A DNA stretch of 64,000 bases, from positions 8,035,229-8,099,228 of the forward strand of contig CM030841.1 in the NCBI GenBank assembly GCA_018105865.1. Direction: 5' to 3'. Below are positions 5,972 through 45,213 of the stretch, piece after piece. A program made the translations under genes and the position numbers. The stretch is from Metaphire vulgaris. Taxonomy: Eukaryota > Annelida > Clitellata > Crassiclitellata > Megascolecidae. The number at the start of each line of letters is the position of its first letter. Position 1 is the first letter of the stretch. Under the pieces are notes generated by a model. That model searched no databases. It was not told the origin of the DNA and was given only the letters and a program-made list of their open reading frames with translations.

Positions 5972-7238
5972 AGAGAGAGAGAGCATCGCTTTACGGTTTG
6001 AGTACAATTATTGCCAGTGCATAGAACAGATGTTGCCTGTTCCTGACTTAGATAAATGAAAACATGCGTCCGTTAAAACGTAAAAGAATTCTTTGCTGAA
6101 AGCGAAATTTTCCTGCGCGAACGACGTTAGATTGTTCCATCGTCATGTTGTTTAATAACGACTGTTTTCTGTATACTAATGCGAAGAATTAATAAAAATA
6201 ACAGTTCTAGTCCGTGAGACAAGCAATGTAACTCCATAGTTACGTATAGTCCATGTAATTTGCACGTTTGACGATAAGGTTTCAGAGGAGGGGATTTCGA
6301 GGAGAAAAATTTTGAAGGAGAAAATTTATTTCACAGACGCCAAAATGTTTTGGCCAATGGCAGAAGCATCTAACTCTTCTGTCTCGATGCTCTGGAGGAA
6401 AGGAGAAAGGAGACAAAAGGCAATCGAGCCTATAGGGCCTAATTCAAACAGGCCAGAAAACTAAAAATTCTCGTTCGCTTCCCAGTTGCTGATGGAGAGT
6501 CCCCGAGCGATGCCAGGGATGTTCGCGCAATACTTGCACCACTTAAAACTGCGTAGGCCTACTAGCGTCGGAACGTTCTATAAGGTTCTGTTTGTTTGTA
6601 ATTAATTTACAAGAGTGTCCGTCCGTTGTTATGAACTGCCATATATATCGCGAAATTAACGCAGCAATGTCCCATTTGAACCGCATATATAGCAGGCAAC
6701 GTCTACGCGTCCGTTTTGTTGCCTTCGCGTATTATTTCTCTACAAAATACACTCAGATAAGTGATCCCTTTGGATTTCGGAGTGATGATGTAAATATTCG
6801 CTTCTTCTTCCAAATTGATTATTAATTACAGTGTAACCGATGCTTTATATTTACAGTGCCAATGATGCGAACTACGGTTACCCCTAATCGATGCATAGAG
6901 TTGTCCATGACTGATGCATCCACGTGCTTACACTGTACATATATGAATTGACCGATTCTTGAATTTTCGATACAGATATAGATCGTGGTCAACGGTCTAC
7001 TACTCAACTGCTGCTCTGCGCTCGTCAACCGACTCGTGTTCGATTTCGTGATCGCTGAATCCTGTAGCTGCTATTGTTCGCCCCTTTTTTAGAGTTTCCA
7101 GGTCGTTCTTTTGCTGTTGATAGTTCTATCATCAGAGTCCAAAATTCAGGCAAAGTTCGATTTCCTTAAGACGAATGTTGACGCTCGGTCGCTTTCGGTC
7201 AGATCGTGACGTTTCGATTGCAAGACGAAGGAGGCAAC
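4717..7238. other. Gene-poor upstream region of the TRIM-like gene
   Basis: No coding exon was recognised. It holds (GA)n at 5490-5541, (TA)n at 5823-5867 and 5885-5933, then (AG)n at 5934-5987. The promoter and 5' leader of the following gene should lie in the last few hundred bases, but no clear TATA box was found. Confidence 0.5.
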
Positions 7239-10200
7239 ATGGCGACCAACAATGTACTGGTTAACGAGATCTACGACCATTTCCTGGTCTGCAAGATATG
7301 TTCAGAGGGCTACAAGGGTCCGAAGACGCTGGCGTGTCAGCACACGTTCTGCAAAGACTGTCTCGTCAAGCACCACGACACGGAGCAACAGCGTCCGCAC
7401 GGATACCGCTTCCTGTCGCGCTCCGTGTCCTGTCCCGTCTGTCACAAGCGGACGGATCTACCGATCGGCGGAATTCCGAAACTGTCCGACAACTTCCTCG
7501 TCTCGAATCTGTACGACGTCGTGGAAAGGCGTCGACAACAACAGGGCGCTCAAACGACGAAGTTCACGTCGTCGGCCGCCTCCGCCGCCGCCGCCGCCGC
7601 TGCCGCCGCTCAGTGCGACATCTGCCGGCCGACGACGATGACGACCGGGGCGAGAACGCGCGTCGGAAACGACAACCACGCCTACTACCGGTGCCTCGAC
7701 TGCTCGAAGACGCTGTGCCGGCGCTGTGCCGACCTGCACCGACGCACCAAGGTCACCAGGGACCACGGACTGTTCGACGTCGGCGTCCGCGAGAGGGACG
7801 TTCAGTGCCGCGTGCACCGCGACGAGACCGTCCGTTTCTTCTGCGAACCGTGCGGCGAATGCATCTGCGTCCTGTGCACCTTCCAGGACCAGCACAAGGA
7901 CCACGAGGTGTTCACGTTCACCGAGGGCCTCGAGCGGCACGGACGGTCGTTCGACGGCCTGATCGAGCGCAGCCGGGCCCGGTGCCGTCGGCTGCGGGAG
8001 CAGATCGAGCTGATCGCCAGGTGCGAAACGAACGCAAAGACGATCGAGGACTGCGTACGGGAATTCGCCATGGAGATGGTGAGGCAGGTACGTCGACAGG
8101 AAAGGGAGATTATCCGCGAATTGAAGGAACTGTTCGGGGCCGGCAAGGCGCGAGAGTTCGTCCAGCAGAAGACGGCTCTGCAGGAGACGCTGCACGCGCT
8201 CGAAAACACCTGCAGTCTGACGGAGATAGTCGTAAAGGACAGAGGCGTCGAGCTCCTGATGCTCAAGAACGAAATCAACCAGAAGCTCAACAAACTTCTG
8301 GCGGAGGACAGGTTCCTCGCTTCGCCGGATTTCCTCGCGCGGTCGGTAGTTTTCGTTCCTGGAAATTGTACCCTCGGAGAATTGAATTTCGAAGACGAGG
8401 GGGATTGTCACGAAGAGCATTCTGCGAGATGTCACGTGACGAAATCGAAGCGCACGGAACACGGCGGCAGCAGCAGCATCAGCAGAAGCAGCTTCGATCC
8501 GGCAAATCCTCGCTACATCTCCGATGACGGCGGCGGAAGACAGGAAGTTAAAGATTTCGAGGACGATGAGTCATTCAGCAACACCAAGGAAGAGGGAGAC
8601 CAGACCGACAGGAAACAAACGGACGAACGCCGTCTGGCGGACATCTTGTCGCGTGATGCGTCGAAGAGAAACGGACGGACAAGAGCGTGTCAGAACGAGG
8701 CTACAACAACAACAACGGAAACAGCTCAGTCGTCGTCAAAAGCGCAATCGCCGAACGGAGAATGCAACTGTTCGAACAAGAGGAAATCGTTTGCCGTCGT
8801 CGTTGATCGATCGACAATGACGGCGACAACATTCGACGCCAAATGCGACAAGGTGCTGGACACCGACGGACTCGTTTGCACCGAAAACGACTCTACCCAA
8901 TCGACGCAAACTGAGGTCCGGACAGTTGAAACGGCCACCGATGCAGTATTAATGGCGAACAAGGCCACCGATACTATAGCCCCCGAGTATCTAGACAAAT
9001 CTGTAGCGACCGAGAGTTCGTATTTTCGCAGCACCGTCGACGACGACGCCAAAGAGATCGCACCCGATGCGGTAACGACTACGAACCGAACAACCCGCAC
9101 CGCGAGCGATCATGCAGAAGCGGACAGCGCCGACCGACTGCCGACTGTAACAACAAGAGTAAAACACTGCAGCAGCAGCAGCAGCAACAACAACAACAAC
9201 ACAACGGCGTCTTCCCCGAGGAAGTCGAGGTCTGCCGGCGGCGACAGGGGGGATGGAAGTCTGAGTTCGACCACGGCGTGTCATGGTTACGAAGTGCTTC
9301 GGAGGCAGACGCGAATATCGCTCAGCAGAGGAACTGGTACCGTACCGGTGTCGACGGTCGAGCGAGGCACGTCCACCGATCCGCCGCCGCCGAATCCGGC
9401 CGGCGGCTTAACCGAGCGAGCGTCGTCGCCGGTACGCTTCAGCGCCGTCGACAAGGCGGTGTCGGCGAGCAGCGGAGAGATCGCGGAACCCGTGGACACG
9501 TTCCAGCTGTCCGGCAAACTGCATCAGAAGCTGTTCAGCAAGAGTGGACCGAAGCTGGACGTCATCTGCGAAGATTCCGAAGAACCTTCGTCATCGTCAG
9601 AGGAAGAAGAAGAAGAAGATGGTCTCCCTCCGACTGGACCGCTTCCAATGAGACAGCGATTCACCGCCAGAGGCCTTGCGTCGTCGTCGGGACAAATTCA
9701 GAAAGGCGGCGGCGTTCTAACGCACAGGGAGAAGTTCGCTCCGTCGTTCGGATCCAGGCTCCGCGGACCTACTCAGACCAGCAGTATATTCAGCGTCGAA
9801 GGCAGAAGATCGGCGTCGTCCATACTGTGGAAGGTCGAAATGGGTACGAACACTTCGTTCGTCGACCTTCAGGACAAGGCCGTCGGCACCGATTCGCCGA
9901 TGCTCGACACCAAGATGGCCGAATGCATCAGCAAACTGAAAACGGTGAGACGGCGTCTGGAGACGAAGCAGACGGCGAACGCGTCGACGTCCACTTCCGG
10001 TTCGAAAGAATCGCCGGAAATGACGACATCGACGTCGTCTTTCGAATCGACCGAACGGAGACCGTCGGCGGCGGCGGCGGCGGCTGCAGCGCTACCTCCT
10101 TCCCCGACGTCTCCGCGTCTCCTCGCCGAGCGGCGGAACAAGATGACGCTCAGCATCGATCAGACGTATCTGTCGTCTCCTCGAAAACAGCGCCACCGAT

Positions 10201-10469
10201 CCGCCTACGCCAGACCCGCCGACTCGTCTCCGTCGGAGAGCAGCGATCCGGACCAGACGAGCCCCATGACGACGACGACGTCGACCTCGCAACGGGTTCT
10301 ACCGACGACGACGACGAGGCGACCGCCGACGACGGCGCTCGCCCGCAAACAACGGACCCTCATCGGCGATGCGCTGCGCGTCTCGCCCGGTTCGACCTGC
10401 ACCGCTAAAGCGCGTTCACCTCGAATCATTCGCAAACAACACGAACAAACCACCTCGCAGAACACTTAG
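7239..10469 (+). CDS. TRIM-like RING/B-box/coiled-coil protein, probable E3 ubiquitin ligase
   Basis: This single uninterrupted frame encodes 1076 residues. The ATG at 7239 is chosen because it has A at -3 and G at +4; the frame is open 33 bases further upstream but without an ATG. A C3HC4 RING spans about residues 18-68 (C18, C21, C33, H35, C38, C41, C65, C68). A B-box 1 follows at about 126-176 and a B-box 2 at about 190-222, then a predicted coiled coil to about 345. This order defines the TRIM/RBCC family, whose RING usually recruits a ubiquitin E2. No NHL, SPRY or filamin domain follows. Instead about 700 low-complexity residues rich in Ser, Thr and Arg contain poly-Ala, an acidic Ser/Glu run and two TQT motifs. 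The lack of introns might reflect retroposition. GC content is far above the surroundings. A transposon starts 20 bp after the stop codon. The TRIM class is certain; the orthologue and substrate are not. Confidence 0.93.
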   Translation: MATNNVLVNEIYDHFLVCKICSEGYKGPKTLACQHTFCKDCLVKHHDTEQQRPHGYRFLSRSVSCPVCHKRTDLPIGGIPKLSDNFLVSNLYDVVERRRQQQGAQTTKFTSSAASAAAAAAAAAQCDICRPTTMTTGARTRVGNDNHAYYRCLDCSKTLCRRCADLHRRTKVTRDHGLFDVGVRERDVQCRVHRDETVRFFCEPCGECICVLCTFQDQHKDHEVFTFTEGLERHGRSFDGLIERSRARCRRLREQIELIARCETNAKTIEDCVREFAMEMVRQVRRQEREIIRELKELFGAGKAREFVQQKTALQETLHALENTCSLTEIVVKDRGVELLMLKNEINQKLNKLLAEDRFLASPDFLARSVVFVPGNCTLGELNFEDEGDCHEEHSARCHVTKSKRTEHGGSSSISRSSFDPANPRYISDDGGGRQEVKDFEDDESFSNTKEEGDQTDRKQTDERRLADILSRDASKRNGRTRACQNEATTTTTETAQSSSKAQSPNGECNCSNKRKSFAVVVDRSTMTATTFDAKCDKVLDTDGLVCTENDSTQSTQTEVRTVETATDAVLMANKATDTIAPEYLDKSVATESSYFRSTVDDDAKEIAPDAVTTTNRTTRTASDHAEADSADRLPTVTTRVKHCSSSSSNNNNNTTASSPRKSRSAGGDRGDGSLSSTTACHGYEVLRRQTRISLSRGTGTVPVSTVERGTSTDPPPPNPAGGLTERASSPVRFSAVDKAVSASSGEIAEPVDTFQLSGKLHQKLFSKSGPKLDVICEDSEEPSSSSEEEEEEDGLPPTGPLPMRQRFTARGLASSSGQIQKGGGVLTHREKFAPSFGSRLRGPTQTSSIFSVEGRRSASSILWKVEMGTNTSFVDLQDKAVGTDSPMLDTKMAECISKLKTVRRRLETKQTANASTSTSGSKESPEMTTSTSSFESTERRPSAAAAAAAALPPSPTSPRLLAERRNKMTLSIDQTYLSSPRKQRHRSAYARPADSSPSESSDPDQTSPMTTTTSTSQRVLPTTTTRRPPTTALARKQRTLIGDALRVSPGSTCTAKARSPRIIRKQHEQTTSQNT

Positions 10470-23039: not shown

Positions 23040-26000
23040 ACACATAACTATATAGTGAGGAAATGAAATTATAGCCAGTTATAAATTTATTTCCTAGTCT
23101 ACGGTCTATCTATACCTGTGTATAGCATTGGTTGGGAATGAAATCATATTCTATGGGTAATAAATTTATTTCCTAGGAAATAAAATTATAGCCGGTTATA
23201 AATTTATTTCCTAGTCTACTGTCTATCTATACCTGTGTATAGCATGGAAATAAAATGATATCCCATGGGTAATAAATTTATTTCCTAGGAAATAAAATTA
23301 TAGCCGGTTATAAATTTATTTCCTATCTATCTATACCTGTATATAGCATTGGTTGAAAATGAAATGATATCCCATGGGTAATAAATTTATTTCCTAGGAA
23401 ATAAAATTATAGCCGGTTATAAATTTATTTCCTATCTATCTATACCTGTATATAGCATTGGTTGAAAATGAAATGATATCCCATGGGTAATAAATTTATT
23501 TCCTAGGAAATAAAATTATAGCCGGTTATAAATTTATTTCCTAGTCTACTGTCTATCTATACCTGTGTATAGCATTGGTTGGAAATGAAATCATATTCTA
23601 TGGGTAATAAATTTATTTCCTAGGAAATTTATAGGTTATAAATTTATTTCCTATCTATCTATACCTGTATATAGCATTGGTAGGAAATGAAATGATATCC
23701 CATGGGTAATAAATTTATTTTCTAGGAAATAAAATTATATGGTTATAAATTTATTTCCTATCTATCTATACCTGTTGGAAATGAAATATGGGTAATAAAT
23801 TTATTGGTTGGTTATAAATTTATTTCCTAACTAAATGAATTGGTTGGAAATGAAATGATACCCCATGGGTAATAAATTTATTTCCTAGGAAATAAAATTA
23901 TAGCCGGTTATAAATTTATTTCCTATCTATCTATACCTGTATATAGCATTGGTTGAAAATGAAATGATACCCCATGGGTAATAAATTTATTTCCTAGGAA
24001 ATAAAATTATAGCTGGTTATAAATTTATTTCCTATCTATCTATACCTGTATATAGCATTGGTTGAAAATGAAATGATATCCCATGGGTAATAAATTTATT
24101 TCCTAGGAAATAAAATTATAGCCGGTTATAAATTTATTTCCTAGTCTATCTATCTATACCTGTGTATAGCATTGGTTGGAAATGAAATGAGTCCATGGGT
24201 AATAAATTTATTTCCTAGGAAATAAAATTATATGGTTATAAAATTTATTTCCTAGGAAATGAAATGACCTGGGTAATAAGCATTATTTTGAAATAAAATT
24301 ATAGTCTATGGGTTATAAATTTATTTTTCTATCTACCTGGAAATAAAAATGAAATGATATCCCATGGGTATAAATTTATTTCCTATCTAAAATTATAGCC
24401 GGTTATAAATTTATTTCCTGTATGTATAGCATTGGTTGGAAATGAAATATATCCCATGGGTAATAAATTTATTTCCTAGGAAATAAAATTATAGCCGGTT
24501 ATAAATTTATTTCCTATCTATCTATACCTGTATATAGCATTGGTTGAAATGAAATGATATCCCATGGGTAATAAATTTATTTCCTAGGAAATAAAATTAT
24601 AGCCGGTTATAAATTTATTTCCTATCTATCTATACCTGTATATAGCATTGGTTGAAATGAAATGATATCCCATGGGTAATAAATTTATTTCCTAGGAAAT
24701 AAAATTATAGCCAGTTATAAATTTATTTCCTATCTATCTATACCTGTATATAGCATTGGTTGGAAATGAAATGATAATGGGTAATAAATTTATTTCCTAG
24801 GAAATAAAATTATAGCCGGTTATAAATTTATTTCCTATCTATCTATACCTGTATATAGCATTGGTTGGAAATGAAATGATAATGGGTAATAAATTTATTT
24901 CCTAGGAAATAAAATTATAATGGTTATAAATTTATTTCCTATCTATCTATACCTGTATATAGCATTGGTTGAAATGAAATGATATCCCATGGGTAATAAA
25001 TTTATTTCCTAGGAAATAAAATTATGTTATAAATTTATTTCCTATCTATCTATACCTGTATATAGCATTGTTTGAAATGAAATGATATCCCATGGGTAAT
25101 AAATTTATTTCCTAGGAAATAAAATTATAGCCGGTTATAAATTTATTTCCTATCTATCTATACCTGTATATAGCATTGGTTGGAAATGAAATGATATCCC
25201 ATGGGTAATAAATTTATTTCCTAGGAAATAAAATTATAGCCGGTTATAAATTTATTTCCTATCTATCTACCTGTATATAGCATTGTTGGAAATGAAATGA
25301 TATCCCATGGGTAATAAATTTATTTCCTAGGAAATAAAATTATAGCCGGTTATAAATTTATTTCCTATCTATCTATACCTGTATGTAGCATTGGTTGAAA
25401 ATGAAATGATATCCCATGGGTAATAAATTTATTTCCTAGGAAATAAAATTATAGCCGGTTATAAATTTATTTCTAGTCTACTGTCTATCTATACCTGTAT
25501 ATAGCATTGGTTGGAAATGAAATGATATCTGGGTGGGTTATAAATTTATTTCTAGTCTACTGTCTAAATAAAATTGGTTGGAAATGAAATCATAGTTATA
25601 AAATTTATTTCCTAGGAAATAAAATTATAGCCGGTTATAAATTTATTTCTATCTATACCTGTATGTAGCATTGGTTGAAAATGAAATGATATCCCATGGG
25701 TAATAAATTTATTTCCTAGGAAATAAAATTATAGCCGGTTATAAATTTATTTCCTATCTATCTATACCTGTATATAGCATTGGTTGGAAATGAAATGATA
25801 TCCCATGGGTAATAAATTTATTTCCTAGGAAATAAAATTATAGCCGGTTATAAATTTATTTCCTAGTCTACTGTCTATCTATACCTGTGTATAGCATTGG
25901 TTGGAAATGAAATCATAGTCTATGGGTAATAAATTTATTTCCTGGGAAATAAAATTATAGCCGGTTATAAATTTATTTCCTATCTATCTATACCTGTATA

Positions 26001-26340
26001 TAGCATTGGTTGGAAATGAAATGATATCCCATGGGTAATAAATTTATTTCCTAGGAAATAAAATTATAGCCGGTTATAAATTTATTTCCTAACTATCTAT
26101 ACCTGTATATAGCATTGGTTGGAAATGAAATGATATCCCATGGGTAATAAATTTATTTCCTAGGAAATAAAATTATAGCCGGTTATAGATTTATTTCCTA
26201 TCTATCTATACCTGTATATAGCATTGGTTGGAAATGAAATCATATTCTATGGGTAATAAATTTATTTCCTAGGAAATAAAATTATAGCCGGTTATAAATT
26301 TATTTCCTATCTATCTATACCTGCATCATGTAGGATTGGT
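23040..26340 (+). repeat. Left array of a ~109-bp satellite-like repeat
   Basis: About 28-30 units of roughly 109 bp, with some shortened or fused. Each unit contains, in order, ttggttggaaatgaaatgat, atcccatgggtaataaattt, the perfect palindrome TTATTTCCTAGGAAATAA, agccggttataaattt and ctatctatacctgta. Units differ by small indels and substitutions, so the array is not freshly amplified. Coordinates of the edges are approximate. Confidence 0.92.
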
Positions 26341-26392
26341 TGGAAAAAAATCATGTCTAACATATATGGACATGTCCATATACACATATAAG

Positions 26393-28380: not shown

Positions 28381-31260
28381 TAGGTAGGAAATAAATTTAT
28401 TACCCATAGGATATCATTTCATTTCCAACCAATGCTAGATACCGGTTTACTGTAGTAGATAGATAAGACATAAATTTATAACCGGCTATAATATTATTTC
28501 CTAGGAAATAAATTTATTACCCATGGGATATCATTTCACTTCCAACCAATGCTATATGCAGGTATAGATAGAGAGGAAATAAATTTATTACCGGTTATAA
28601 TTTTATTTCCTAGGAAATAAATTTATTACATATTGGATATCATTTCATTTCCAACCAATGCTATACACAGGAAATATACACATATATAGGAAATAAATTT
28701 ATAACCGGCTATAATTTTATTTCCTAGGAAATAAATTTATTACCCATAGAATATGATTTCATTTCCAACCAATGCTATACACAGGTATAGATAGACAGTA
28801 GACTAGGAAATAAATTTATAACCGGCTATAATTTTATTTCCTAGGAAATAAATTTATTACCCATGGGATATCATTTCATTTCCAACCAATGCTATATACC
28901 GGTTTACTGTAGTAGATAGATAAGACATAAATTTATAACCGGCTATAATATTATTTCCTAGGAAATAAATTTATTACCCATGGGATATCATTTCACTTCC
29001 AACCAATGCTATATGCAGGTATAGATAGAGAGGAAATAAATTTATTACCGGTTATAATTTTATTTCCTAGGAAATAAATTTATTACCCATGGGATATCAT
29101 TTCATTTCCAACCAATGCTATACACAGGTATAGACAGATAGGAAATAAATTTATTACCGGTTATAATTTTATTTCCTAGGAAATAAATTTATTACCCATG
29201 GGATATCATTTCATTTCCAACCAATGCTATACACAGGTATAGATAGATAGGAAATAAATTTATTACCGGTTATAATTTTATTTCTTAGGAAATAAATTTA
29301 TTACCGATAGGATATCATTTCATTTCCAACCAATGCTAGATACCGGTTTACTGTAGTAGATAGATAAGACATAAATTTATAACCGGCTATAATATTATTT
29401 CCTAGGAAATAAATTTATTACCCATGGGATATCATTTCATTTCCAACCAATGCTATACACAGGTATAGATAGACAGTAGACTAGGAAATAAATTTATAAC
29501 CGGCTATAATTTTATTTCCTAGGAAATAAATTTATTACCCATGGGATATCATTTCATTTCCAACCAATGCTAGATACTGGTATAGATAGATAGTAAATAA
29601 ATTTATTACCATCTATAATTTTATTTCCGGGCCATCAGTAGGCTAAATAGTTATGTGTAGATAGGTAGGAAATATATTTTTTACCCATAGGATATGATTT
29701 CAATTCCAACCTATGCTATGCACAGGTATAGGTAGACAGTAGACTAGGAAATAAAGTTATTACCGGCTATAATTTTATTTCCCTGCCATCAGTAGGCTAT
29801 ATAGTTATGTGTAGATAGGTAGGAAATAAATGTATCACCCATAGGATATGATTTCAATTCCAACCTATGCTATGCACAGGTATAGGTAGACAGTAGACTA
29901 GGAAATAAAGTTATTACCGGCTATAATTTTATTTCCCTGCCATCAGTAGGCTATATAGTTATGTGTAGATAGGTAGGAAATAAATGTATCACCCATAGGA
30001 TATGATTTCAATTCCAACCAATGCTATGCACAGGTATAGATAGACAGAAGATAGGAAATAAATTTATTACAGGTTATAATTTTATTTCCTAGGAAATAAA
30101 TTTATTACCCATGGGATGTCATTTCATTTCCAACCAATGCTATACACAGGTATAGATAGATAGGAAATAAATTTATTACCGGTTATAATTTTATTTCCTA
30201 GGAAATAAATTTATTACCCATGGGATATCACACGATGGTCACACGTTCCAATTCCACCAGGACATTATCCGTGCCACGCACTCGTACCAGAATGGGAGAG
30301 CGTGCGTTCAGGGTGATTGGTCCATCACTCTGGAAACAACTTCCGCCTCCTCTCAGAAATGGAATTTCAAACAGTGACATTTTTCTCGCTCGACTTAAAA
30401 CATATATGTTTGACCTGACAACCGAGGCGCATTTGTAACAATTGAGCCTAGTAACTGAACTTCATGTATGTGTGTATGTATGTATGTATGTATGTATATC
30501 ATTTCATTTCCAACCAATGCTATATACAGGTATAGATAGATAGGAAATAAATTTATTACCGGTTATAATTTTATTTCCTAGGAAATAAATTTATTACCCA
30601 TGGGATATCATTTCACTTCCAACCAATGCTATATTCAGGTATAGATAGATAGGAAATAAATTTATTACCGGTTATAATTTTATTTCCTAGGAAATAAATT
30701 TATTACCCATGGGATATCATTTCATTTCCAACCAATGCTATATACAGGTATAGATAGACAGTAGACTAGGAAATAAATTTATAACCGGCTATAATTTTAT
30801 TTCCTAGGAAATAAATTTATTACCCATAGGATATCATTTCCAACCAATGCTATATACCTGTATAGATAGATAGGAAATAAATTTATTACCGGTTATAATT
30901 TTATTTCCTAGGAAATAAATTTATTACCCATAGGATATGATTTCATTTCCAACCTATGCTATGCACAGGTATAGGTAGACAGTAGACTAGGAAATAAAGT
31001 TATTACCGGTTATAATTTTATTTCCCTGCCATCAGTAGACTATATAGTTATGTGTAGATAGGCAGGAAATAAATTTATCACTCATAGGATATGATTTCAT
31101 TTCCAACCAATGCTATGCACAGGTATAGATAGACAGTAAATAGGAAATAAATTTATTACCGGTTATAATTTTATTTCCCCACCAACAGCAGGCTATATAG
31201 TTATATGTAGAAAATAAAGTTATTGCCTGCTACTAACCGTATGCATTAAAGTGATTAAAG
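28380..31260 (-). repeat. Right array of the same ~109-bp repeat, inverted
   Basis: About 22-25 units, each the reverse complement of the left-array unit (for example gatatcatttcatttccaac, CCAATGCTATA, ggtatagatagatagg). Subfamilies with a longer spacer (ccatcagtaggctatatag, gttatgtgtagataggtagg) cluster at 29630-30050 and near 31020-31210, toward the outer end. The array is interrupted at 30230-30497 by a retrotransposon fragment. Confidence 0.92.
30230..30497 (+). mobile_element. CR1/L2-like LINE 3' fragment inserted in the array
   Basis: The frame reads RTLSVPRTRTRMGERAFRV, then IGPSLWKQLPPPLRN and ends FLARLKTYMFDL. This is the usual last segment of CR1/L2-group ORF2 proteins. A (TGTA)n tail at 30470-30498 follows. 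Array sequence (gatatca / tatcattt) resumes on both sides, so the LINE copy inserted after the array formed. Confidence 0.8.
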
Positions 31261-33671: not shown

Positions 33672-33701
33672 TGACATCATGAGCTCCCATCTGTTTATAA
33701 A
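33672..33701 (+). promoter_or_regulatory. Candidate CRE-like site and TATA box
   Basis: TGACATCA (33672-33679, one mismatch to the cAMP-response consensus) lies 16 bp before TTTATAAAT (TATAAA at 33696-33701). A start about 30 bp after the TATA box would give a leader of roughly 20 nt before the ATG at 33747. Vertebrate somatostatin genes also have a CRE about 50 bp upstream of transcription start. The function here is inferred. Confidence 0.45.
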
Positions 33702-33746
33702 TCGTCTCCTTGCCGTTCGGTCGTCATATCCAGATTGTCGTTCAAG

Positions 33747-36700
33747 ATGTGCTCAACTACCGAAGACATCCGCAGACTGGTTGGCGGCGGTGGTGGTGGT
33801 GGTGGTGGTCGCGGACGAGCGTTCTTCTCCGCCATCGTCTTCGCGGTCCTCAGCTCGTCCTTGGCCAGCGGATATCCGGCAGCCGTCAGCATTCCAATGC
33901 TGGAGGGTGAAAATGACGAGAGAACGGGGCCAGCTGACGAAGTACGTATCACGTTAGTGCTAGTACGTCCGAATTGTGTTCTACATAGGCTGTAACTTTT
34001 AATCTCAACTTTCCTGTTAGAATTTGCAAGTTCTGGAGGTCAGAAGATGAACGTTGTGCCTAAGCGACTATAATGCTAGGAGCGCCGCTGAGTAGAGATA
34101 CAAGAGCATCTATTATACAGGCTCGGCGCTAAGGGGTGGGTCCGCGGGTCCGGACCCACCCAGCCTCGGGCAGGGGCACCCGAGCAAGTCGTGCAAATCC
34201 GCAGAGAAATTTTGATTGGGGGTGGGGGAGGGGTAGTCTGAGCCGGGTCCTGATTGTGTAGATTGCATTAGACCCACACAGCCAACAAAACCCAGCGCCG
34301 CCCCTGCATCTATGCAAATGCTACATTACATTACTATATTATTTTTCTATCGAATTTTTTTACCACAGACCGATCAAACTTTTGTAAAATTTCAACTTGT
34401 ACTTTGCATAGGTATAAGTTGAAATTTTTACAAAAGTTTGATCGGTCTGTGGTAGAAATTTCAAATCTTAGGTTTAAAGAAAATAGTGAATTTATATCGG
34501 CGTCTAATCCGAGTTGCAGCAGCTTGACATAAAATTACTTCATATTTATCCGACTGTAAGAATTATTATCGTAAAATATCATCCATATTCTACACAAGTC
34601 TATTCCAAAGTTGGTTCTTTAAATTCCAAGAAGTTTGACTCAAGCAAACATTTATTTGACAGACATTAAATAGGCCTAATTCGTTCAATCTTCGTCCCAA
34701 ATCTTCTGGCATTTTACAGAGGCACTGGATCTAATATGAAAACAATTTGTCAATTTTACTCGTGAAAGTTTCGCCTGCAGCGCCGTTACTTAGAAAATCG
34801 ACGACCTGTTTTGACAGGGACTGTTTTAAAGAAAATTTTTATCACTGCACTTAATTCAAGAAGACGAACTTTTGACATGACTTGTGGTAAAACTTGGACA
34901 TCCGCGTAAAAAACAAGTAAAAGGGGTCGTCCGGAAAATGTATTACTGCACAAAGCACAGAAAATTGCATTTTGCCACTGCACATTTTCAGTGTTGTGGA
35001 CGGATGGAACAGTTTTAGATGAGGTGGGAGTGACAGTTGAAACGGTAAACGGATTCAAAGGCTATCTTGGAAAGCTGGGTTATTGAATGCGGAGAGTAAC
35101 TACAGTGGTTTTCACACAGGCTTACTTAGCCTCCTAAACCACTTTAAATCATATTATTATTATTAATATAATTGATTAATTACATTAATTAATTATTATA
35201 CATTATATTATTATTAATTTATCACTGCACATTTTGTGTATCACTGCACGTTAAAACAGGCCTTGCCGTTTTGAGTTTAAAATGAAATTCAGAGGTCTGT
35301 TTTTTAGATATCCTTGAAATTGTTGACCTCGAGGTCCCATTGGTCACAGTATAGCATTTCTGCTTAAGTTGACTAATATTGTTCTTGCACTGTGGTCCAA
35401 TTTGTGTGCATTTCATTCGACAAACTAATACAAGTTACTAAACTAGTATTACATTCGCGGTTTGGGGGTCTATGAGGTTTAATTGGCCTCTAGGGTTCGG
35501 AACCATGGGCGTCCGGAGGGGGGTGCAAGGGGGTGGAATTGCACCCCCTTGGAAAACTTGTGGAGTTACGAAAAAAGTAAAATTACTTGTTTCTTTAGTC
35601 ACAAAACTTTGTTTTGCACCCCCTGGAAAATTTTTTCATTTCTGTTGTCACAAGACCCTGTTTTGCACCCCCTGGAAAAATTTCTGCGGACGCCCATGAG
35701 GGTTCCTGGAAATTTTCCATGCCTATAAGACCGGTACATTCCTAGCCCGCACTGTATCTCACTCTAAGGCAGTGGTTCTTAACCTTTTTATGATCACGTA
35801 CCCCTGAAACAAGTACAAGAGAACGAAATACCCCCTACCTGCATACATTATCCCAGGACACTGCAATATTTTGAAAAATTATGAACTGTGGCAAACATCT
35901 GTCACAGATTGCGCACATGTCAGAAAGTGTGATTTTTCCTTAGAATTTCTAATTTAGTACAAAATTTTTACAGTATTTGTACAGTGTACAGAGTAAATTG
36001 TAGTAAGCTTTTAAACAGACTTTATTTCCGGATAATTCTGCGTACACCCGCAACGTCCTTCAAGTACCCCCAAGGGGTATAAGTACCCCTGGTTAAGAAC
36101 CACTGCTCTAAGACATAAACAATATGTCTTGATCAGAATCTCAGCAAAACACTGGTGACCGTTTTGCCGAGAAGAATTCGACAGCTGGAAAACGAAAGAC
36201 TTCAGGCGACTAACTTCGCACGGCTGACCGAGTTGCTATTCAACCAACTTCTCAAAGAATCAGCTGTTGGGTTCGGAAGACAGCTACCGAAAAGACAACC
36301 TCCAGGTCAGTAAGTGCCTCTGGCTTTAATGGGGCAAAACTTGACTTGATTTTGACCGAATACCAACATTTTCGGCCTTCTGCCTCGATGAGTGAATAGG
36401 CGTGGTACATCATCTCAATTTCTTCACCGGCAAATGAACGCCGAATGGTTCTAGCCTACTAAAGATAACCTAACTTCAACACCTCGTGTAACATATTGAC
36501 AATTATCAATATGATAACCGAGGTCTTGAAGTTAGGTTAATGCCTTTTAAAATTAAAAATCGACCAATGCGAATAGAGATTATAATCTCTAATTCGCATT
36601 GGTAGATTTTTAAAAGGCATTATTGGGTCATCATCGGACTACTCCCGTTCCAAAGGTTTCAAACTCCAGCGGTGGTAAGATATGCAAGAAGAAAGAAGAG

Positions 36701-37371
36701 GACAATATAACTAATGATTTTAGTTCTTCTGTGAAGTACCTAATTGAGATGCCTTCCCAAGCAGATTGCAAAACGTTTTAATTGCAAAAAGGCTTCACCG
36801 TAATTCAGTGTTTATTCTAGGCCTTCTCTGGAGGGATTCCTTCCCCAAAGTTTTAAAATTCCCCCCCTCGAATTTTTTTCTATGTTGACTGGGAGAATGG
36901 AAATTTCCTCCCCCCCCCCAAATGTTTGGAGACCAGTGCTCGAATTGTGAGAAAATGAAAGGGGGGTCATGGCGAGCGTGGTGTTTTAAGAATTTACACT
37001 TTTGTCATTTTTGCATTTCTCTAGGGAGGGTCTGCCATTTTAAAGGGGGGGTTGAACCCCCCCCCCCAACCCCCCCGGCAATTCGAGCTCTCGTGGAGAT
37101 TCCGACCTTGTCCCCCAAACATTTCAAAATCCCCCCAATGTCAAAGTGGCTAGAATAAACACTGACCGTAATTGACACAAAACGTGACTGTCGACAAATT
37201 TTCTAGCAAACTACAATATAAAAAGTAAAGCAAATTTCACGAGCCTTGCCAATTTAGAGCCTACTTACATTACGGAATCGATGCTAAAATGTTCAAAATA
37301 ATATATGATGCTGTGTTGTTTCTACAGGCAGGATCTGCGTCTGGAAGATCTGTCCAGATTATCTGTATTAA
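33747..37371 (+). CDS. Candidate somatostatin/urotensin-II-like neuropeptide precursor, three exons
   Basis: Three exons join to 408 nt, 135 residues plus stop: 33747-33941, 36137-36305 and 37328-37371. Splice sites are GAA/GTACGT, GATCAG/AAT, CCAG/GTCAGT and TTTCTACAG/GC, and the phases (0, then 1) match. Exon 1 has a signal-peptide-like core at about residues 25-42 (FFSAIVFAVLSSSLASG) after an unusual poly-Gly stretch. Exon 2 encodes an acidic/amphipathic spacer with RR at 77-78, GFGR at 110-113 and the dibasic site PKR at 116-118. Exon 3 gives the end of the peptide. Cleavage after KR would release QPPGRICVWKICPDYLY, whose N-terminal Gln could become pyroglutamate and whose cysteines would close a six-residue ring. 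Urotensin II has CFWKYC and somatostatin FWKT in the same C-terminal position. The exon 2 frame also stops at 36311 if unspliced, but the donor there is strong. Family membership is inference from a short motif; an unrelated small secreted protein is the alternative. Confidence 0.62.
34361..34454. repeat. Near-perfect 38-bp hairpin in intron 1
   Basis: The arm TACCACAGACCGATCAAACT (continuing to 34398) pairs with 34416-34454, with one bulged base and a 17-nt loop. It lies in intron 1 of the peptide gene. It could be a miRNA-like precursor or a small palindromic MITE. Confidence 0.75.
35504..35698. mobile_element. CATGGGCGTCCG-family MITE
   Basis: The ends CATGGGCGTCCGGAGG and TCTGCGGACGCCCATG are inverted. 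The interior repeats TGCACCCCCTGGAAAA twice. It lies in intron 1 of the peptide gene. Relatives lie at 10489-11042 and near 58585-58707. Target duplication is not clear. Confidence 0.72.
35770..36105. mobile_element. hAT-like MITE, CAGTGGTTCTTAACC
   Basis: The ends CAGTGGTTCTTAACC and GGTTAAGAACCACTG are perfectly inverted, flanked by ctctaagg and ctctaaga (7/8). It ends 31 bp before exon 2 of the peptide gene, so it supplies part of the region where that intron's branch point must lie. Relatives lie at 51213-51425 and 52218-52567. Confidence 0.9.
36467..36538. repeat. 72-nt imperfect hairpin in intron 2
   Basis: AACCTAACTTCAACACCTCG pairs with CGAGGTCTTGAAGTTAGGTT (one mismatch), and the loop carries its own CATATTGA/TCAATATG stem. 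It directly abuts the next hairpin. Confidence 0.75.
36539..36621. repeat. 83-nt near-perfect hairpin in intron 2
   Basis: AATGCCTTTTAAAA pairs with TTTTAAAAGGCATT, and CCAATGCGAAT pairs with ATTCGCATTGG around an AGAGATTATAATCTCT tip. It sits head-to-tail with the preceding hairpin, a layout seen in miRNA clusters and in palindromic MITEs. Confidence 0.75.
36806..37164. mobile_element. CAGTGTTTATTCTAG-family element
   Basis: The ends CAGTGTTTATTCTAGGCC and GGCTAGAATAAACACTG are inverted. The flanking duplication is 9 bp, accgtaatt (36797-36805 and 37165-37173). It lies in intron 2 of the peptide gene, about 160 bp before exon 3. Its interior is rich in G and C homopolymers. Confidence 0.92.
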
Positions 37372-37495
37372 CTTTCATCATCACAAACGTCAGAATAATT
37401 TTACAAATTTAAGAGATATTATACCAAGAAGATACGCCGTTAGCTGTTTCTGGACATCAGCGCCTACTATGATCACTTTTTTATTAACAAAAATA

Positions 37496-37501
37496 ATTAA
37501 A
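37496..37501 (+). terminator. Possible polyadenylation signal ATTAAA
   Basis: ATTAAA lies 125 bp after the stop codon of the peptide gene. It is a common variant of the AATAAA signal; the sequence around it is AT-rich, so chance occurrence is possible. Confidence 0.3.
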
Positions 37502-37556
37502 AATTGACACTTCTACTTTCTGCATTAATTTTATCACTATCAAAGTAGGTCTATAT

Positions 37557-38128
37557 TAGGGGTCAGTGGGTATACCCGTACCCGCGGGTTTACCCGTACC
37601 CGACCCGTACCCGTGGGTTGGGTATGGGTTGGGTAGACATTTTATGGGTGGGGTTGGGTACGGGTACAACAGTCACGGGTACGGGTATACCCGTAATTTA
37701 CCCAAAAATTGATGTATTTTATCATACCCGTATGTCAGGTTCACAATTTCACATTCATTTCACAGCAACAATATTAATTGACAGAATTATGTTCAGACTT
37801 CAGAAGCTCATGGATTTTGGATGTTAATATTATAATTTTTCTTACCTGTTTAAATTAAAGGCAGACAGTTGGTATTATATTGTACTTACTTACAGCATAC
37901 TGTGCATGACGTCATGTTTTTAAAAATTGCTGACGTCTCTTCCTGCTTGCAGTTTCAATATTAACAGTTATATTTAATATGGCCACGGGTATTGACGGGT
38001 ACGGGTATACCCGTGGGTTGGGTCGGGTTGGGTACAGATTTTTAATGATGGGTTGGGTCGGGTCGGGTACAGTCTAACAATTCACGGGTTGGGTTGGGTA
38101 GGAAAAATGCTGTACCCGCAGACCCCTA
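37557..38128. mobile_element. hAT-like element with CGGGTA arrays
   Basis: It starts TAGGGGTCAGTGGGTATACC and ends GTACCCGCAGACCCCTA. The exact 8-bp duplication gtctatat flanks it (37549-37556 and 38129-38136). Words such as GGGTACGGGTA and GGGTCGGGTTGGGTA fill both ends. No transposase is seen. Confidence 0.92.
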
Positions 38129-38136
38129 GTCTATAT

Positions 38137-38720
38137 ACAGTAGCCTACTTTACTCTCTGTTTTGTAACTTGTAAAGAACTATCGTCAGAGCGTCTAGTTG
38201 AACTGTCAACATTTAATCCGGTGGCATAATACAACAGATGCAGTCAATTTTGATTGCTCAAGACTGCCTACAAAGAACTATACTGTAACTGTATATGCAC
38301 ATGGCCTGTAAGACGGTCTGGATAAAATTTAAATGTTTTCAAAATCTTCATGGTTAATCCCGGCAACGGTAGCAATTTATAGCAACTGCGGTGATTTGCC
38401 ATAGGTAGGTCTAATATACTCGTATTATTTAAACACATTTTTACTTTAAATTTAGTGATCCAATTTGAAGAAAATTCTCGTCTATCTAAATTGTCTAAAA
38501 GATAGTGCACAATCCAAATACAGTTGCATTTTATAAATGCACTTTTCTTTAAGAAACAACAAGCCTAATTGTCAGAAATAATAATATTATTAATACATTT
38601 GGTACCATACGATAGTAATTGTAATGATGGAAGATATCGCCAGTTTGATCATACACAGAGAAAATTAAGTGTATGTAGGTCTATGCGTAGTGCACGCAAT
38701 CCTGCATAGAAGATGGTATA
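38137..38720. other. Non-coding interval
   Basis: AT-rich sequence with no recognisable gene or repeat. Confidence 0.4.
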
Positions 38721-44434: not shown

Positions 44435-45135
44435 TCAATCTCTGGATGTTATCTTTCCGTCGTCGTCGACTACTTTCGAATCGTTGACCGTACTGGCTTC
44501 GGATTCGGCCTCCTTTGCCGAAGCGAGTATTTTCTGCAAGTAGTTGATGTACTGAATGGCGTACCGGAGCGTTTCCACCTTGCTCACCCTCTTGTCTTTA
44601 TTTTCCAGCGGTAGATGTTGGCGCAGTCGAGCGTAACCTTCGTTCACGCATCGCACCCTCTCCCTTTCCCTTTCGTTGCGCTTGTGCACGAACAGCGGCG
44701 TCTCAGCGACACCCCCATCCCCACCGCCGGCAGAGACCGCCGCCGTAGGACTGCCAAGCACGACGTGGCAGGAAGAGGAGGAGGAGGAGGAGGGGTATCC
44801 AGGTGAGTAGCAGTACGGTCGTGACGTGGCGAGTGGTCTGTAGTTGTGCCTCTGGACCGCGCCAGAAGACGGTTCTGGAGATCGGGAGTCCAAGTCCAGA
44901 CTGGAGTCGTAGTGGCGAAGACGACCGTGAGTGGATCTGACTTCGTTCGCCGACCAGTTGGCGAGCGCAGGCGATTCTCTCGCCAGGAACCTTTCGTTCG
45001 GAGGAATTCCCAAGTCTTTGCAAGTCGGCGATGACAGACACTCGGCCACGTTCGCCCAAGAACTCTTCAGAGCTGTTCGCCGCATATCGTGCGCTTCAGC
45101 TGAAAGAAACCAAAATATAATTGATCGATCGATCG

Positions 45136-45213
<78 letters not shown>

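Follow-up and report, generated by a model that had tools for sequence, protein, structure and literature searches.

A candidate three-exon gene for a secreted cyclic peptide combining a somatostatin-type intron plan with a urotensin-like ring size

Does a short Cys-x-Trp-Lys-x-Cys sequence (CxWKxC) at the end of three joined open segments mark a real neuropeptide gene, and if so, to which family would that gene belong? The locus that raises this question lies on the + strand of a stretch of 64,000 nucleotides (nt), referred to below as the window, which runs from base 8035229 to base 8099228 of contig 10 (18.0 Mb) of a genome of 728 Mb in 246 contigs. Judging from the sequence, we put at about two in three the probability that these segments make up a genuine gene of three exons whose secreted product is a cyclic neuropeptide of the somatostatin/urotensin superfamily, with a gene architecture closest to that of somatostatin-type genes. 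The rings of somatostatin, urotensin II, and allatostatin-C are very short, so that their descent can hardly be settled by sequence alone, and gene structure can help; a somatostatin-like intron plan together with a urotensin-like ring size would make a useful test case.

Once joined, the three segments form a reading frame of 408 nt that encodes 135 amino acids without an internal stop, with a first intron in phase 0 and a second in phase 1, and the precursor terminates in KR-QPPGRICVWKICPDYLY-stop, just as a preliminary description of this locus had claimed. The translations of exons 1, 2, and 3 are MCSTTEDIRRLVGGGGGGGGGRGRAFFSAIVFAVLSSSLASGYPAAVSIPMLEGENDERTGPADE, NLSKTLVTVLPRRIRQLENERLQATNFARLTELLFNQLLKESAVGFGRQLPKRQPP, and GRICVWKICPDYLY, respectively, and the predicted gene is made up of the following parts, in which a slash marks a splice or cleavage point:

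33747..33941, + strand: exon 1, 195 nt, residues 1-65, with a predicted signal peptide of residues 1-42 (LASG/YP); ends at the phase-0 donor GAA/GTACGT.
33942..36136, + strand: intron 1, phase 0, 2195 nt, holding inverted-repeat elements.
36137..36305, + strand: exon 2, 169 nt, residues 66-121 and the first base of codon 122, with the spacer, K117-R118 (36290-36295), and QPP.
36306..37327, + strand: intron 2, phase 1, 1022 nt, interrupting Gly122 within the predicted mature peptide.
37328..37371, + strand: exon 3, 44 nt with TAA, giving the remainder of Gly122 and then R I C V W K I C P D Y L Y.
37336-37353, + strand: the ring Cys125-Cys130, in exon 3.
37496..37501, + strand: ATTAAA 3' of the stop, by its motif a possible polyadenylation signal; AATAAA is absent from 37372-38400.

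A secreted cyclic neuropeptide precursor has a signal peptide and, preceded by a dibasic site, a C-terminal peptide that contains two Cys residues and soon ends in a stop; all of these are present here. The earlier view of the product as a secreted precursor with a spacer, a dibasic site, and a C-terminal six-residue Cys ring carrying Trp-Lys is supported, and this layout is common to the precursors of somatostatin and urotensin II. Using a simple von Heijne-type matrix, we found the best signal cleavage at LASG42/YP, after a hydrophobic stretch, with a score of 7.89. Scores this high together with a hydrophobic core occur in 13 of the 414 open reading frames (ORFs) of at least 60 residues in 284 kb, our own included, and 9 of the 12 others are low-complexity by eye.

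The same layout might also be a chance assembly, in which an exon-1-like ORF is followed by unrelated open segments and by a meaningless CxWKxC, but we regard this as quite improbable. The numbers come from simulations, in which the window was modelled as an order-3 Markov chain and splice sites were scored with generic matrices, and they are rough. In 150 simulated windows, the expected frequency of CxWKxC with a stop no more than 12 codons further on is 0.067 per 64 kb, which corresponds to about one occurrence per 15 windows or some 760 in 728 Mb; because the ring motif is expected this often by chance, the motif alone is little proof. In 284 kb of real sequence, it occurs a single time, at this gene. 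Given the core, however, an equally strong junction that also has a dibasic site no more than 13 residues away was found in only 1 of 6000 simulated placements and 2 of 4898 real ones, the latter being overlapping placements whose two successes lie 23 nt apart. None of these three successes among 10,898 placements has at least 56 open codons upstream, and rough arithmetic from these figures gives about 0.2 decoys of such quality per whole genome. The rarity comes from the surroundings of the motif, with a junction quality that is far above chance given the core.

That junction is formed by donor 2 and acceptor 2. Splice sites were scored with generic matrices and ranked against every GT (819) and every AG (884) that the + strand of the window holds between 30001 and 45000. 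Donor 2 (CAG/GTCAGT) is among the best 0.4% of the GT, acceptor 2 (TTTCTACAG/G) among the best 0.2% of the AG, and donor 1 (GAA/GTACGT) among the best 4.6% of the GT, and for these three sites the earlier claim of good splice motifs holds.

The promoter layout and the signal peptide add to the improbability of a chance assembly. Upstream of the start codon, there are three elements, one of which resembles a cyclic AMP response element (CRE):

33672..33679, + strand: CRE-like site TGACATCA, starting 24 nt 5' of the TATA box; its function is putative and is suggested by the motif.
33696..33701, + strand: TATA box TATAAA, by motif, 30 nt 5' of the initiator A.
33724..33729, + strand: initiator-like TCATAT; transcription would start at 33726, which is 21 nt 5' of the ATG.

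Both strands of 284 kb together contain 10,116 ATGs, of which 50 are preceded at 30-80 nt by a TATA box and initiator with this spacing; a CRE-like site accompanies them at 2 of the 10,116, the other of which reads ATG CCC TGA. The pattern was set after seeing this gene, so the figure of 2 is a description and not a test. Somatostatin is a classic CRE gene. CRE/TATA promoters have been linked to preferential transcription through CRTC1 in neurons in the part of PMC5740062 that was available, and the reference list of that paper contains two titles on the somatostatin CRE, one of them Montminy and Bilezikjian 1987.

Several observations weigh against a real somatostatin-type gene, and we gather them in this and the following paragraphs, beginning with those that concern whether the exons are exons at all. 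Good splice motifs had also been claimed for acceptor 1, but this site (TTGATCAG/A), which opens exon 2, is weak and reaches only the top 23% of the 884 AG. When a loosely defined spliced dibasic site is added to the ring motif, the chance rate is 0.027 per 64 kb (150 simulated windows). In its codon statistics, exon 2 is equalled or surpassed by 13% of 438 null segments. Exon 3, which has 14 codons and no null of its own, scores -0.51, below background. Exon 1 scores 0.30 per codon, above all 290 background segments, but its other frames score alike (0.29 for another + frame and 0.42 for a reverse frame), so that it stands out because of its G+C content. Since codon statistics give exons 2 and 3 no support, the argument from coding potential was dropped. 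The weakness of acceptor 1 and the fact that exons 2 and 3 are not coding-like both speak for a chance assembly.

The surroundings of acceptor 1 also count on this side. A short inverted-repeat element, labelled hAT-like by eye, occupies 35762-36113 of the window, with ends at 35770 and 36105, flanks CTCTAAGG/CTCTAAGA, and arms GCAGTGGTTCTTAACC/GGTTAAGAACCACTGC. It ends 31 nt 5' of exon 2, leaving 23 nt after the second flank copy, and it may weaken the splicing of this exon. It is conceivable that CTAAG in the copied target site could act as a branch point. Palindromic or inverted-repeat stretches are present in both introns, namely at 34357-34458, 36466-36539, 36553-36613, and 36805-37165.

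Relatives of the precursor bear on whether exon 1 belongs to the gene. A search of 5.8 billion proteins with the whole precursor returned one match among 62 candidates, P0001, which represents the exon-1 ORF of a close relative, read without splicing, and a query with the exon-1 read-through returned P0001 again as the sole match among 4 candidates. P0001 corresponds to exon 1 minus three glycines, in frame, plus 17 residues of intron read-through; the relative retains the frame, the start, and the donor-side residues of exon 1, and its signal-peptide score is identical to that of the window. Between the two, 9 of 62 aligned exon-1 residues and 2 of 17 intron read-through residues differ. Exon 1 thus diverges no less than the intron read-through and is without excess constraint, and a divergence that looks neutral is a further point for a chance assembly. 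Exons 2 and 3 together have no relative among the 5.8 billion proteins (1 candidate, no match); the unspliced exon-3 frame, open for only about 20 amino acids, is too short for a protein search. Within its own genome, the protein of exons 2 and 3 matches the locus in the window only.

The record of the relative raises a further possibility, which overlaps with a chance assembly, namely that exon 1 stands alone as an unspliced gene, encoding a secreted protein of 82 residues that ends in intron 1 at CVLHRL-stop, and that exons 2 and 3 are chance. That the record contains the same read-through, about equally similar on either side of the donor, argues for this possibility. However, it resembles an ORF call on a short contig (the longest has 1396 bases), similarity within an intron is expected in a close relative, and donor 1 is fair, so we consider a separate unspliced gene very unlikely.

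If the three-exon gene is real, the question of its family turns mainly on the first intron and on the ring. In the available part of PMC7536072, a phase-0 N-terminal intron is given as a mark of somatostatin, cortistatin, and allatostatin-C genes, and the N-terminal intron of the human urotensin genes is in phase 1. The predicted intron 1 is in phase 0, as in somatostatin-type and also allatostatin-C-type genes, and not in phase 1 as in the urotensin genes of human, the species to which this comparison is confined. Residue 66, the first after intron 1, aligns with residue 47 of human preprosomatostatin in all 24 alignments run with different matrices, gap costs, and modes; we take residue 47 to be the first after the human SST intron. 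The same coincidence arises in 31 of 500 shuffled spacers. After the intron, the window gene and human SST each have 70 residues, although Trp is at position 64 in one of them and at 62 in the second.

Further adverse points concern the family. Neither Somatostatin PF03002 nor Urotensin_II PF02083 of Pfam matches the precursor; as controls, human SST matches PF03002 at 2.5e-12, in a hit that covers its last 18 residues, and human UTS2 matches PF02083 at 9.1e-8. Similarity to human SST is weak, as 17 of 500 spacer shuffles score as well, and the C-terminal local alignment beats shuffles slightly better for human UTS2 (2 of 300) than for SST (6 of 300). Whole-sequence shuffles overstate significance because the signal peptide is broken up. 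The ring is without an aromatic residue preceding Trp. In other databases, the PDB gave only two matches, both to one unrelated protein (E 1 and 1.5), and no Rfam family reached its gathering score in the window.

The preliminary description had tied the peptide more closely to urotensin II, and a true ortholog of this hormone, a reading that overlaps with the superfamily part of the one we favor, would account for the six-residue ring with Trp-Lys at the urotensin II positions and for the slightly better C-terminal alignment. Urotensin II-type precursors have, moreover, been published in Aplysia and oyster, according to the available parts of PMC3493602 and PMC8398477. Nevertheless, intron 1 is in phase 0, the Urotensin_II model does not match although its control works, and the ring is CVWKIC instead of CFWKYC, with two of the four inner residues different and five residues after the ring. 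The closer tie was therefore not borne out, urotensin II was ruled out as a first choice on intron phase and Pfam, and we do not file the gene there; an ortholog of urotensin II seems unlikely. It is also doubtful that this is a cyclic neuropeptide of another family in which CxWKxC was reached independently. Similarity is weak outside Cys-x-Trp-Lys-x-Cys and no Pfam model matches, both in favor of an independent origin, but the phase of the predicted intron, and apparently its place, agree with somatostatin-type genes.

A more specific proposal than superfamily membership, which we put forward only tentatively and hold to be somewhat unlikely, is that the gene might be an invertebrate somatostatin ortholog that has kept the vertebrate SST gene plan, by which we mean the CRE/TATA promoter, the phase-0 intron at the same residue, and the 70 residues after it, while the ring turned into CVWKIC and an intron was gained inside the mature peptide. 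If this were true and the genome were that of a protostome, there would be gene-structure evidence for a true somatostatin, and not just allatostatin-C, before the split of protostomes and deuterostomes. A scan of the genome for the allatostatin-C pattern C-[FY]-F-N-P-[IMV]-x-C gave a single exact match, in which a stop is read; a diverged or intron-split gene would escape this pattern.

Returning to the favored reading of a three-exon somatostatin/urotensin-like gene, we can propose how its product might be made. Transcription would be activity-dependent, would proceed from the CRE/TATA promoter, and would start at 33726. Both introns would then be spliced, with the second event assembling the peptide. 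The signal peptide would be cleaved after Gly42, a proconvertase would cut after Lys117-Arg118, and Gln119 would be cyclized to pyroglutamate, so that the predicted mature product is pyroglutamyl-PPGRICVWKICPDYLY with a disulfide. This Cys125-Cys130 disulfide would display Trp127-Lys128 at the turn, and the peptide, once released, may bind a rhodopsin-class somatostatin-like receptor. Arg123, inside the peptide, offers a possible further monobasic cut that would yield a shorter ring peptide.

The window and its neighborhood hold other features. One open frame of 1095 amino acids at 7182-10469 has RING and B-box zinc fingers (Pfam) and is presumably a TRIM-like protein; another, of 233 amino acids on the minus strand at 44435-45136, has a helix-loop-helix domain (Pfam E 1.4e-17) and looks achaete-scute-like by eye. 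Two long tandem arrays of an A+T-rich unit of about 109 bp, at 23156-26346 and 28385-31211, are oppositely oriented, with about 2 kb between them. Of 116 filtered ORFs in 220 kb of neighboring sequence, the 60 longest were inspected by eye, with no synteny test made, and nothing that bears on the gene was seen among them. In this neighboring sequence, a frizzled-type cysteine-rich domain (L022, 3245-3892, minus strand) and a paired-type homeodomain exon (L025, 6224-6691, minus strand) were tentatively recognized by eye. COX1 has only one short match in the genome, at G000:C31:4387446-4387568 (L005), which covers 47 of 436 model positions (E 1.3e-6) within a 268-amino-acid open frame; it may be a fragment of mitochondrial DNA in the nucleus or may have another origin.

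How does the predicted gene compare with known systems? Koch et al. 2022 reportedly described somatostatin-related peptides in molluscs and annelids. The available parts of PMC12962067, PMC10264353, and PMC10501145 cite that work. As urotensin II-type and somatostatin-related precursors have already been published in invertebrates, the kind of gene is known, while a ring with Val and Ile around Trp-Lys and a five-residue tail, as predicted here, was not met in the literature examined. Neither the string CVWKIC nor WKIC together with somatostatin was found in the literature searched, which leaves out most subscription journals.

With urotensin II and its related peptide URP, as far as the available parts of the Aplysia (apUII, PMC3493602) and oyster (PMC8398477) papers go, the predicted gene shares the six-residue C-x-W-K-x-C ring near the C-terminus and the dibasic site; it differs in its ring residues, in its first intron (phase 0, where the human genes have phase 1), in its tail of five residues, and in the lack of a Pfam match. 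The allatostatin-C type and the echinoderm SS1 type share the phase-0 N-terminal intron in the available parts of PMC7536072 and PMC8851493, but differ in ring length and residues. The ring of vertebrate SS-14 has 12 residues. In contrast, the window gene has the six-residue ring CVWKIC, the tail PDYLY, a second intron inside the peptide, and no match to Pfam Somatostatin. Nevertheless, vertebrate somatostatin and cortistatin and, reportedly, their mollusc and annelid relatives have the same signal peptide, spacer, basic site, and single C-terminal peptide with two Cys residues and Trp-Lys, and somatostatin-type genes share the phase-0 N-terminal intron and the CRE/TATA kind of promoter. The predicted ring is urotensin-like in size and the predicted intron plan is somatostatin-like, and the locus is most likely a somatostatin/urotensin-like peptide gene with a somatostatin-type gene structure.

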